Below are positions 1 to 34,212 of a stretch of 64,000 bases of DNA, piece by piece. The notes under the pieces are model-generated. The model saw only the letters and a list, made by a program, of their open reading frames with translations, was not told the DNA's origin and ran no database searches. The position numbers and the translations under genes were made by a program. Position 1 is the first letter of the stretch. The number at the start of each line of letters is the position of its first letter. The DNA is from Sulfurifustis variabilis (GTDB lineage: Bacteria > Pseudomonadota > Gammaproteobacteria > Acidiferrobacterales > Sulfurifustaceae): the NCBI RefSeq assembly GCF_002355415.1, contig NZ_AP014936.1:62001-126000 (forward strand), read 5' to 3'.

Positions 1-297
1 GACGAGCGGATCAATCTCGAGGTGAATATCAGCAAGGACAACTTTGCGGATGCGGTTCAGGGCCTATTAAACGTCAAGCAAATCAACACCCAGGTCCTGC
101 TCGACAACGGCGAGACGGTTGTGATCGGGGGCATTTTCGAGCAAGACAACGGGACGACGGTCACGCAGATACCGTTCTTCGGCGACCTCCCGCTGATCGG
201 GTGGCTCTTCAAGAGCAAGGAAATCAAGGACAGCAAGACGGAGCTGTTGATCTTCCTTACACCGAAGCTGCTCTCCCACAACACCAGCCTCCGCTAG
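1..297 (+). CDS. pilQ: Type IV pilus secretin PilQ, C-terminal end (partial)
   Basis: The reading frame is open from base 1 and ends at TAG 295-297, so only the last 98 residues are present. The text matches the end of the secretin domain: VLLDNGETVVIGGIFE, then IPFFGDLPLIGWLFK and a final LLIFLTPKLL strand. PilQ forms the outer-membrane ring through which type IV pili pass. It is followed directly by aroK-aroB, the usual gammaproteobacterial order. The GTG at 22 is an internal valine, not a start. Identification is secure despite truncation by the window edge. Confidence 0.95.
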   Translation, partial: DERINLEVNISKDNFADAVQGLLNVKQINTQVLLDNGETVVIGGIFEQDNGTTVTQIPFFGDLPLIGWLFKSKEIKDSKTELLIFLTPKLLSHNTSLR

Positions 298-335
298 ACG
301 CGCGCCCGGCCCGGCCGGGGCGCGTCCGCTTGATT
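297..335 (+). terminator. GC-rich hairpin after pilQ, possible terminator
   Basis: A long, nearly perfect inverted repeat (arms about 297-311 and 313-326, GACGCGC pairing with GCGCGTC) starts at the last base of the pilQ stop codon. It is followed only by TTGATTTATT rather than a run of T, so it is a weak or factor-assisted terminator at best. Confidence 0.4.
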
Positions 336-358
336 TATTCAATCCGGGCTGGCATACC
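330..358 (+). promoter_or_regulatory. Predicted sigma70-type promoter of aroK
   Basis: TTGATT (330-335), a 17-base spacer, then CATACC (353-358). The aroK ATG begins only six bases after the -10 hexamer, so the expected transcription start falls on the start codon itself, and no Shine-Dalgarno sequence is visible. This predicts a leaderless aroK mRNA. Confidence 0.5.
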
Positions 359-364
359 GCTCGC

Positions 365-907
365 ATGAGCGGATCGGGCAGCGTCTTTCTGATCGGCCCG
401 ATGGGCGCGGGCAAATCCACCATCGGCCGGCATCTGGCGGAACTTCTGCGCAAGGAGTTCGTCGACTCGGATCACGAGATCGAGCGCCGCACCGGTGCGA
501 GCATCCCGCTCATCTTCGAAATCGAGGGCGAGCCGGGTTTTCGCCGGCGGGAATCCGCCGTGCTGGAGGAGCTCACGGCGCGCGCCGACATCGTCCTCGC
601 GACCGGCGGCGGAGCCGTGCTGGCCGAGGACAACCGCGAAACGCTGCGCGCGCGCGGCACGGTCGTGTATCTGGAGGCGCCGCTCGACACCCTCCTGGCG
701 CGCACTCACCGGGACAAGAACCGGCCACTCCTGCAGGACGGGGACCGGCGAGGCAGGCTGGAGGAAATCCTGCGTGTCCGGGAGCCGCTCTACCGCGCCA
801 CGGCGCATCTGGTCGTCGCCACCGACCACCGGGCGCCGGCCGTGATCGCGCAGGAGATTGCCGCCAAGCTTCGTGAACCGAGAGCGCATGAGAACGCTAC
901 AGCTTGA
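365..907 (+). CDS. aroK: Shikimate kinase
   Basis: Phosphorylates shikimate at the 3-hydroxyl with ATP in the cytoplasmic chorismate pathway. The 180-residue product has the usual AroK length. Visible motifs are the Walker A loop GPMGAGKS near residues 11-18, the metal- and shikimate-binding DSDHEIE near residue 34, the shikimate-binding GGG near residue 81, and the RPLL lid region near residue 118. The 3' end overlaps the start of aroB by 20 bases, so the two genes are probably translated from one message. No Shine-Dalgarno sequence precedes the ATG. Confidence 0.96.
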
Positions 908-32277: not shown

Positions 32278-32631
32278 TCACTTGCTCGTAACCGGGCTGC
32301 CGTCGTGCAACGCGGCGAGATCGCCGAGGACGACCACCTCTCCGCCTTCGAGGCCGCTGATCACCTCGGCACGGTCGCGCGTCGTCGTGCCGACGCGCAC
32401 CATCCGGAAACGCGCATGCCCTCCCTCGAGCACGTATACGCCGGGGACGCCGCCGATCTCGACGACCGCGCCCCGGGGAACCTGGGCGTTGCCCCGGGCG
32501 GGCTTCGCGACGGTTGCGGTCGGGCGCTCGAGCGCCGGCCGCTCGACCGGCGGGGTCGGCGCCGGCGCGCGCGTGCAGGCGCCGGCGATGCCGGCCAGCG
32601 CGAGCAGCAACGCGAGTCGCGAACCGGTCAT
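32278..32631 (-). CDS. Miniature RND adaptor-like lipoprotein
   Basis: 117 residues from an ATG that overlaps the TolC-like gene stop (ATGA). The signal LALLLALAGIAGAC has a lipobox with Cys19, so the mature protein is lipid-anchored. After a Pro-rich linker (about 20-45), the rest matches only the C-terminal membrane-proximal domain of RND adaptors: VPRGAVVEIGGVPGVYVLEG and EVISGLEGGEVVVLGDLAAL. The barrel, lipoyl and hairpin domains of a normal 350-400-residue adaptor are absent, and no sign of them is found in flanking frames. It may be a real minimal adaptor or a deletion remnant kept in frame. It lies exactly where the adaptor gene belongs. Confidence 0.75.
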   Translation of the reverse strand: MTGSRLALLLALAGIAGACTRAPAPTPPVERPALERPTATVAKPARGNAQVPRGAVVEIGGVPGVYVLEGGHARFRMVRVGTTTRDRAEVISGLEGGEVVVLGDLAALHDGSPVTSK

Positions 32632-33953
32632 TCGGGCAGCTCTACGGCGCCGGTCGCGAGGGCGAGATTGGCCTGCGCGGCGAGGAGTCCCGCCGAGGCG
32701 TTGAGTTTCTCCATGCGCGCCTCGACCAGCACCCGCTCGGCCTGGAGCAGGTCGATCAGGATGGTGCGGCCCTCGCCGTAGCGCCCGCGCACGAGATCGG
32801 CCGTGCGCCGCGCCTTGCCCACGTTGTCCGCGCAGATCTCGACGCGCCGGCGCGCCTCCTCGAGCGCGTGCAGCGCCGCGCGCACCTCGGCGGCCGCCTG
32901 CTGCTTCACGGCGTCGAGCCGCGCCTCGGCCGCGGCCTGCCCGGCCTCGGCCGCCGATATCTGGTGACCGGTGCGGCGCCCGTTGTAGAGATTCATGCTC
33001 ACGACGCCCATCACGCTCGTCGCGGAGTTGGCGAGCGCGGGCGAATCGTCGTACCAGGACTGCGCCGCGCCGACGCTCACCTGCGGCCGGTAGGCGGCGC
33101 GGGCCGAGTCGACCTCCGTGCGGGCGGCGTCCCGCACGGCGGCCGCCGCGCGCACGTCCGCGCGCCGCTCCTGCGACTGCCGCTCGAGCGCGGCCGCATC
33201 GCCCGGCCGGATCTCGGCGGCATCCGCGAGGGGCGCGAGCTCGATCGCCTCGTCCGGCGGCAGGCCCATGACGCGGCGAAGCTGCGTCAGCGCGTTGCGC
33301 GCGCGGGCCACGGCCTGCTCGCGGTTCGACTGAACCAGCGCGAGGTTCACGTCCGCGCTCAGCTTGTCGGACTGCACGATGCGCCGCTCGCGCAGCAGGC
33401 GCGCGGTAGTCTGCGCGTGGCGCTCGGCGGCGCGCACGGCGTCGTCCATGATGCGCACCGCCTCGGCCGCGGCCTGCGCCGCGTAAACGGCGTTCCGCGC
33501 CTGCGTGGCGACCGTCTCGCGGGCCCGGCGGAGCTGGAGCTCGGCCGCCGACTCCTGGGCCGCCGCTCCGGCGATGCCGGCCTGAACGCGCCCCCCGGTG
33601 TAGACCGGCCACATGAGCGAGAGCTCGGTCGCGTGCAGCGTGCTCGGATCGGGGTCGTTGAGGCTCGCGGGGTCGAAATCGGGTGCCGTGACGGTGCGCG
33701 TATTGAGCTTGTCGGCGAAGGCGTCGAGCGGGTTGTCGCTGCGCCGCGCCATGTAGCGCAGATTGATCTCCGGCTGCCGCCCGCTCTCCGCGGCCGCGGC
33801 CTGCGCGGCCGCGGCCCGCCGGCCGGCCGCCACCGCCCGGAGCTCCGGATTGCGCTCGAGCGCGTGGGCCACGGCCTGTTCCACCGAGAGCGGCTGCGCC
33901 CCGGCGAGCGCGGGAGCGAGCAGGATCAGCAGCAGCGGCAAACGGGGGCCCAT
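32628..33953 (-). CDS. TolC-family outer-membrane channel protein
   Basis: 441 residues with a signal peptide cleaved after ALAGA (about residue 18) and two repeats of long helices: the first with PLSVEQAVAHALERNPELRA, the second with ADVRAAAAVRDAARTEVDSA. Alanine-rich heptads are typical of the TolC tunnel. A conserved YTGGR turn lies near residue 115. It forms the outer-membrane part of the export system with the adaptor and RND pump downstream. Promoter: a -10-like TATAAG seven bases before the ATG, with an FNR-type site upstream. Confidence 0.9.
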   Translation of the reverse strand: MGPRLPLLLILLAPALAGAQPLSVEQAVAHALERNPELRAVAAGRRAAAAQAAAAESGRQPEINLRYMARRSDNPLDAFADKLNTRTVTAPDFDPASLNDPDPSTLHATELSLMWPVYTGGRVQAGIAGAAAQESAAELQLRRARETVATQARNAVYAAQAAAEAVRIMDDAVRAAERHAQTTARLLRERRIVQSDKLSADVNLALVQSNREQAVARARNALTQLRRVMGLPPDEAIELAPLADAAEIRPGDAAALERQSQERRADVRAAAAVRDAARTEVDSARAAYRPQVSVGAAQSWYDDSPALANSATSVMGVVSMNLYNGRRTGHQISAAEAGQAAAEARLDAVKQQAAAEVRAALHALEEARRRVEICADNVGKARRTADLVRGRYGEGRTILIDLLQAERVLVEARMEKLNASAGLLAAQANLALATGAVELPE

Positions 33954-34008: not shown

Positions 34009-34212
34009 CTACCGGAACGCGGCGCCCGGCGGTGTCCCCACCGCTTTCAGGATCTTGGCCAGGGGGCAAAAGCCCGTGTAGGCCGACTGCAGCAGGTTGG
34101 CGCCGACGAGCGCGGTCAGCCACAACCAGTACGGACTGTGCACCTGCGCGAGCGCGAGACTCAGCAGGATCATGGCGCCGGCGAAGGCGAGGACCACACG
34201 GTCGATGCTCAT
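34009..34212 (-). CDS. DUF2892 family small membrane protein
   Basis: 67 residues, two hydrophobic helices (about 6-24 and 28-48) and the family signature [21 protein letters not shown]. The same domain forms the membrane tail of YgaP-type rhodanese proteins, linked to sulfur metabolism, which fits the sulfide oxidation seen elsewhere. It lies upstream of the efflux operon. It ends seven bases before the FNR-type site, so the tolC operon has its own control region. Confidence 0.85.

Follow-up and report, generated by a model that had tools for sequence, protein, structure and literature searches.

The locus described here raises the question of how an RND pump and its outer membrane exit meet once the adaptor tube between them has been lost. 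It lies in a 64,000-nucleotide stretch (hereafter the window) of Sulfurifustis variabilis, whose genome (the source genome) is a single contig of 3,958,814 bases. On the minus strand, the window holds tolC, a mini-adaptor gene and an RND permease gene, in that order (Table 1). The mini-adaptor start and the tolC stop overlap by four bases (ATGA), a gap of 102 bases leads on to the RND gene, and solved RND pumps match the permease over its full length. The original prediction placed between a TolC-like channel and an RND pump, with an ATGA overlap, a 117-residue lipoprotein made of a signal peptide, a proline-rich linker and the membrane-proximal domain (MPD) of RND adaptors; the Pfam matches of both neighbours and the four-base overlap bear out this arrangement. 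Just upstream of tolC (window 34009-34212, minus strand) is a gene for a 67-aa membrane protein that appears DUF2892/YgaP-like by eye; gene calling in the other 34 loci, which can overlook small genes, gave no relative of it. Among neighbours in 35 loci, many of them of the short type, a HemW-like gene (13 loci) and a HemJ-like gene (12 loci) recurred, both named by eye; this suggests a stable chromosomal place but does not point to a substrate.

Table 1. Parts of the tolC, mini-adaptor and RND operon, with positions in the window.
Feature	Position	Strand	Description and basis
Mini-adaptor gene	32278..32631	-	117 aa; ATG start; 25-row family alignment
Mini-adaptor residues 1-19, lipoprotein signal peptide ending in lipobox Cys19	32575..32631	-	Sequence
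Mini-adaptor residues 20-32, proline-rich linker	32536..32574	-	Sequence; outside the range matched in most structural comparisons
Mini-adaptor residues 33-117, complete RND-adaptor MPD	32281..32535	-	Profile, predicted model, structure matches
TolC-family outer membrane channel, 441 aa	32628..33953	-	PF02321 E 1.4e-52, 2 stretches (OEP repeats)
TolC residues 186-201, first periplasmic tip motif (tip 1)	33351..33398	-	Conserved in short-adaptor clade; aligns with E. coli TolC 143-158
TolC residues 391-406, second tip motif (tip 2), RYGxGRTILIDLLxAE	32736..32783	-	Aligns with E. coli TolC 361-376
RND permease (AcrB/AcrD/AcrF family), 1069 aa	28966..32175	-	PF00873 E 1.2e-163, residues 18-1060

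The mini-adaptor contains the MPD and no other adaptor domain. It had no Pfam match at E <= 1, and the RND-adaptor profile TIGR01730 (322 positions) matched it only at positions 249-320, with a score of 43.6 bits that falls below the curated cut-off of 94.9. By sequence, its nearest solved relatives were the C-terminal parts of adaptors, headed by the TriA-TriB chain of 6vej. An AlphaFold2 model built on the 25-row family alignment (mean pLDDT 92.2, pTM 0.73) was aligned by VIA-align 2 with TMexC over residues 33-117 (Z 14.9, 1.4 A over 85 residues), and with AcrA (Z 13.9), BesA (Z 13.4) and MexA (Z 13.1). Since the matched ranges run from the N-terminal strand through the MPD end (36..373 in TMexC, 36..376 in AcrA), the mini-adaptor keeps both pieces of the discontinuous MPD without the intervening part. 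Length, profile, alignment and structure match agree that the beta-barrel, lipoyl and alpha-hairpin domains are absent from it, as had been predicted.

The lipid anchor is mostly conserved. Cys19 was present in at least 90% of the 25 aligned rows, but the lipidation cysteine is missing in three copies (L037, L040 and L229), so lipidation is not universal. About 14 residues lie between Cys19 and the first MPD residue, similar to the spacing in AcrA between its lipid-anchor residue Cys25 and residue 36-38. Judged from the model, this AcrA-like distance would fit docking at the same height. In E. coli, the residue at position +2 after the lipobox cysteine sets lipoprotein membrane retention (the +2 rule); this residue is Thr in the mini-adaptor, and by that rule inner-membrane retention is not assured.

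A search of related genomes for the same short gene, which the original prediction had proposed as a check, found it throughout the close relatives. The order TolC, short gene, RND was present in 24 of 27 loci chosen by close RND similarity, and in the other three the contig starts within the RND gene, so that every readable locus (24/24) carries the short gene. In each of these 24 the gene immediately upstream is tolC, disrupted by a frameshift in L041, and the four-base overlap of tolC and mini-adaptor recurs in 15. Short gene lengths were 103-133 aa, with the exception of L025 and its copy L019 (154 aa, from a script-chosen start) and of L017, the copy in genome G013, which an in-frame stop shortens to 69 aa. 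In L044, ~640 extra bases separate mini-adaptor and RND; a 121-aa gene of unknown kind is predicted there (L044 6322-7001), and a similar gap is found in L050 (genome G048).

Within the order, the mini-adaptor scored at E <= 1e-12 in 39 of 57 genomes, with one match each, and 28 of the 34 good-quality genomes have it. The 18 genomes without a short-gene match included none with an RND of the short clade beside another adaptor. Only one of them, G014, has a clade RND at all (74%, at a contig edge); in G043, a 43% RND relative adjoins a full adaptor, at most 428 aa long, and the best RND in the others was at most 29% identical. Wider searches, in which the best 11-12 candidates per genome were scored, found the short form in 10 of 369 genomes at class level, six of them outside the order and drawn from four families, and at phylum level (397 genomes) in the source genome only. 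The 45 genomes with class-level matches comprised 10 measured as short, 14 measured as full and 21 with open frames of at least 350 aa; the 25 with phylum-level matches comprised the source genome itself, six measured as full, 17 with open frames of at least 345 aa, and G635 with 192 aa.

These patterns bear on whether the gene could be a deletion remnant, an assembly error or a misread gene. Its size, one third of a normal adaptor, and the in-frame stop in G013 would suit such an explanation, but a similar size recurs across many separate assemblies, including a single-contig genome, and the RND pumps beside it form one clade. Over 10 close pairs, dN/dS ranged from 0.10 to 0.36 in the mini-adaptor and from 0.04 to 0.10 in RND, with dS saturated in some pairs. 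Clade-wide conservation and these ratios place the mini-adaptor beyond chance, and the ratios indicate purifying selection. We rejected the remnant or error explanation, which we regard as very improbable, on the grounds of synteny, order-wide presence, the single clade and dN/dS. The mini-adaptor is a real, ancient and conserved MPD-only RND adaptor.

The origin of the mini-adaptor can be judged against a sister clade of pumps. We picked 20 sister operons of Pseudomonadota among the class and phylum profile matches, with RND proteins 45-54% identical to that of the window and adaptors whose MPD is homologous to the mini-adaptor. All 20 measured sister adaptors were full length (about 340-404 aa, from script-chosen starts), and TolC was found upstream in 17 of the 20 operons. 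A Polaromonas plasmid relative differs in gene order (adaptor, RND, TolC). The RND tree had 57 rows (31 short, 20 full and 6 outgroup), with near-copies or partial sequences (L224, L226, L233, L234, L236) and incomplete ones (L031, L032, L042, L045, L047) left out. It placed the 31 short rows in one clade with a support of 100 and with one change, by a quick method with SH-aLRT and with long outgroup branches. The original prediction had reasoned that a full-length adaptor at this place in close relatives would mark the short copy as a remnant or an error; no readable locus of a close relative had one, and full adaptors were found beside the distinct sister clade.

Short and full sister adaptors align over the signal peptide and the MPD, with a single long gap between. 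Correspondingly, a profile built from all 20 full-length sister adaptors (365 positions) matched the short protein at 279-362 in all 38 loci holding it and additionally at 4-50 in 21 of the 38, with nothing between. The simplest account of this alignment would be that one ancient internal deletion gave rise to the mini-adaptor. The direction of change, from full to short, is judged from the full adaptors carried by sister and most outgroup pumps.

A full adaptor could still be supplied from another gene. Within the operon's surroundings, the sister-adaptor profile found only the mini-adaptor itself in the 64-kb window and in 37 other loci, had no match in the three loci whose contigs start inside the RND gene, and recovered the adaptors of 10 out of 10 control loci. 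A linked full adaptor is therefore rejected. The claim that the short protein stands in place of the normal adaptor is supported by its position, its homology with the sister adaptors and the lack of any other match in the window and loci. No full adaptor was linked to the operon, but all 30 good-quality short-adaptor genomes tested had at least two other TIGR01730 matches, at least one of them over the cut-off, so one of these could be borrowed. Under this alternative, the mini-adaptor would be an accessory or alternate protomer of a mixed ring, comparable to TriA/TriB, and a full adaptor from elsewhere would supply the tube to TolC. We consider this unlikely, although it is the most serious competitor.

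The source genome has 13 other TIGR01730 matches at E <= 1e-10, of which 12 adjoin RND or ABC-type genes or sit inside a larger membrane protein (by eye). The RNDs beside the other adaptors were at most ~28% identical to that of the mini-adaptor operon, so no sister-type pump was seen there. In G272, both TIGR01730 matches lie beside CusA-like pumps (PF16576 E 1.4e-62 or better), and of three adaptor matches in G047, two are beside other RND pumps and one is P0004-like. In three genomes of one genus (G026, G020 and G033), the nearest noticed adaptor on the same contig is 8-18 kb off, beside its own CusA-like RND. Additionally, pairing in Salmonella is specific in the account given by PMC6975555, where AcrB is served by AcrA and AcrE but not by MdtA or MdsA.

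The exception in the source genome is P0004, an MPD-less adaptor (L150:4619-6633; C1 about 2553118-2555132) that adjoins an orphan TolC homologue and has two thioredoxin-fold genes upstream; no inner-membrane pump could be recognised in the part that was read. Its surroundings resemble the G047 locus by eye. P0004 relatives were found in 15 of the 57 order genomes at E <= 1e-10 but were strong (E 1e-43 or better) in only eight, six with the mini-adaptor and two without it. On these counts P0004, which had looked promising as the missing part of a split adaptor, was rejected as a general partner. No conserved orphan or dedicated full adaptor for the mini-adaptor pump was found among the genomes compared.

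We note two further adaptor loci in the source genome. One (L154; C1 1159500-1169500) pairs a full adaptor with an RND; no TolC gene could be recognised over the 10 kb that were read, and its channel may be shared with another operon. The other (L146:6608-7285; C1 about 2323107-2323784) encodes a second reduced adaptor, a 225-aa lipoprotein that overlaps its own RND gene and retains the beta-barrel and the MPD while lacking lipoyl and hairpin domains (by eye and from TIGR01730 positions 168-321). With relatives at E <= 1e-20 in 12 of the 57 order genomes, it is a separate step of adaptor reduction.

Since a lost tube might be made up for by a longer partner, we considered the lengths of RND and TolC. 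Short-clade RND had no insertion of two or more residues relative to the sister clade, and the docking domain was equal in length; instead, it lacks ~14 residues that sister pumps have after residue 573 of the window's protein, as well as shorter stretches of 2-5. Short-clade TolC showed a two-residue gain at 246 and a different N-terminus compared with sister TolCs, which are ~13 residues longer near 93. A compensating extension was accordingly rejected, with no gain in RND and only two residues in TolC.

Conservation of the TolC tips set the short clade apart from sister operons, where the tips are less conserved. The TolC alignment left out L224, L226, L233, L234 and L236, the frameshifted L041, three loci with none (L032, L042, L045) and three in which no TolC was found (L211, L217, L219), and the thinned comparison additionally dropped L207. 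After thinning to less than 50% pairwise identity (14 short and 10 full rows), overall mean column identity was nearly the same in short (0.390) and full (0.384) groups. Tip 2 reached 0.856 in the short versus 0.532 in the full group, ranking 1 versus 30 of 401 windows, and tip 1 reached 0.628 versus 0.457 (rank 20 versus 79), with tip windows that were chosen after the profile was seen. Tip 2 is thus the most conserved 16-residue TolC window in the short clade. In the RND docking domain, the ratio of its conservation to that of the whole protein was also higher in the short than in the full group (DN 0.87 versus 0.76, DC 0.83 versus 0.73), but the short RND group is more alike overall, which pulls these ratios towards 1.

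Compared with E. coli TolC, tip 2 keeps Tyr362, Gly365 and Asp371, has Gln for Asp374, and has Thr for Arg367 with an Arg adjacent; tip 1 keeps Asp153 and has Ser at the Thr152 position, and the window's TolC has Arg at the Gly147 position. Most residues at the positions that presumably form the primary gates are retained. This picture can be read in more than one way. Tip residues of these kinds mediate adaptor-hairpin binding according to PMC4069162, and a channel opened by a hairpin might well keep the Tyr362, Gly365, Asp371 and Asp153 positions. Tip conservation fits any fixed tip partner, a borrowed hairpin included, which counts against direct docking, and the L154 pair likewise suggests that components may be shared in the source genome, in favour of a mixed ring. 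Opposed to this are the specific neighbours of the other adaptors and the narrow distribution of P0004.

A different possibility is that the pump is not tripartite and delivers its substrate no further than the periplasm; the mini-adaptor would then be its activator, and TolC would serve other pumps. The bridging domain is gone, and in L154 an RND and an adaptor occur together in a stretch where no TolC was recognised. We regard this as improbable, given that TolC is directly upstream in every readable locus, with overlapping genes in 15, and that its tip 2 is so strongly conserved.

Weighing these alternatives, we lean towards an RND pump on which an MPD-only, lipid-anchored adaptor docks and which it activates, with TolC coupling to the pump without an adaptor tube. 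More tentatively, the operon may represent a stable, ancient class of RND exporters without a tube, in which TolC would stand tip-first on the docking domain while the MPD subunit activates the pump. The mini-adaptor would take the place that the AcrA MPD has on AcrB, near the inner membrane at the porter domain. There it would make the pump more stable, stimulate it and influence how substrates gain access. Contact between MP and porter domains is described in PMC6975555, and AcrA and MacA stimulate their transporters, with the adaptor C-terminal domain critical for stimulation (PMC4338810). By analogy, docking and activation are suggested by the mini-adaptor having kept just this C-terminal part.

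The exit channel would then be recruited without an adaptor hairpin, and the conserved tips of TolC would meet the RND docking domain directly or transiently, and export would be carried out by the TolC-RND pair. TolC-RND coupling is probably by direct tip contact. In the absence of a tube, either the two membranes would need to approach each other or TolC and RND would touch only transiently. Direct contact between AcrB and TolC has been reported from cross-linking and SPR (PMC4446572), but, as described in the same review, the EM model that Du et al. 2014 presented for AcrAB-TolC excludes direct RND contact.

The mini-adaptor is related to known systems in part only. It has the lipoprotein anchor, linker and MPD fold of RND adaptors such as MexA, AcrA and TMexC (TIGR01730), and its gene is likewise placed between those of TolC and RND, but at 117 aa versus about 340-400 it lacks their beta-barrel, lipoyl and alpha-hairpin domains and scores below the family cut-off. 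In TriABC of Pseudomonas aeruginosa, unequal adaptor subunits are already known to serve a single RND. TriA and TriB are both full-length adaptors, and that pump has two of them, whereas the mini-adaptor operon holds the mini-adaptor gene only.

A further parallel is BesA of Borrelia burgdorferi, a hairpin-less and likewise reduced adaptor in an OMF-adaptor-RND operon (BesCAB). The partners of BesA have no compensating extra domain in the description given by PMC3807786. However, BesA keeps its lipoyl and barrel domains and the mini-adaptor has lost both, which sets it outside the BesA type. The channels may also differ, as BesC is reported to be without primary gates (PMC4446572) and the TolC of the mini-adaptor operon keeps most residues at the presumed gate positions. 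The MPD-only adaptor goes beyond BesA: it has also lost the barrel and lipoyl domains, and its conserved clade lies outside the spirochetes. No description of an MPD-only RND adaptor was found in titles and abstract openings among the open-access literature matches listed.

RND-channel contact and the role of each adaptor domain have long been debated (reviewed in PMC4446572), and the same review calls BesA fully incompatible with current tip-to-tip models. Direct RND-TolC docking could be put to the test on the mini-adaptor operon, and a natural MPD-only system would allow the pump-activating and channel-bridging roles of adaptors to be examined separately. If the proposed reading is true, evolution has separated these two adaptor functions, pump activation and channel bridging.
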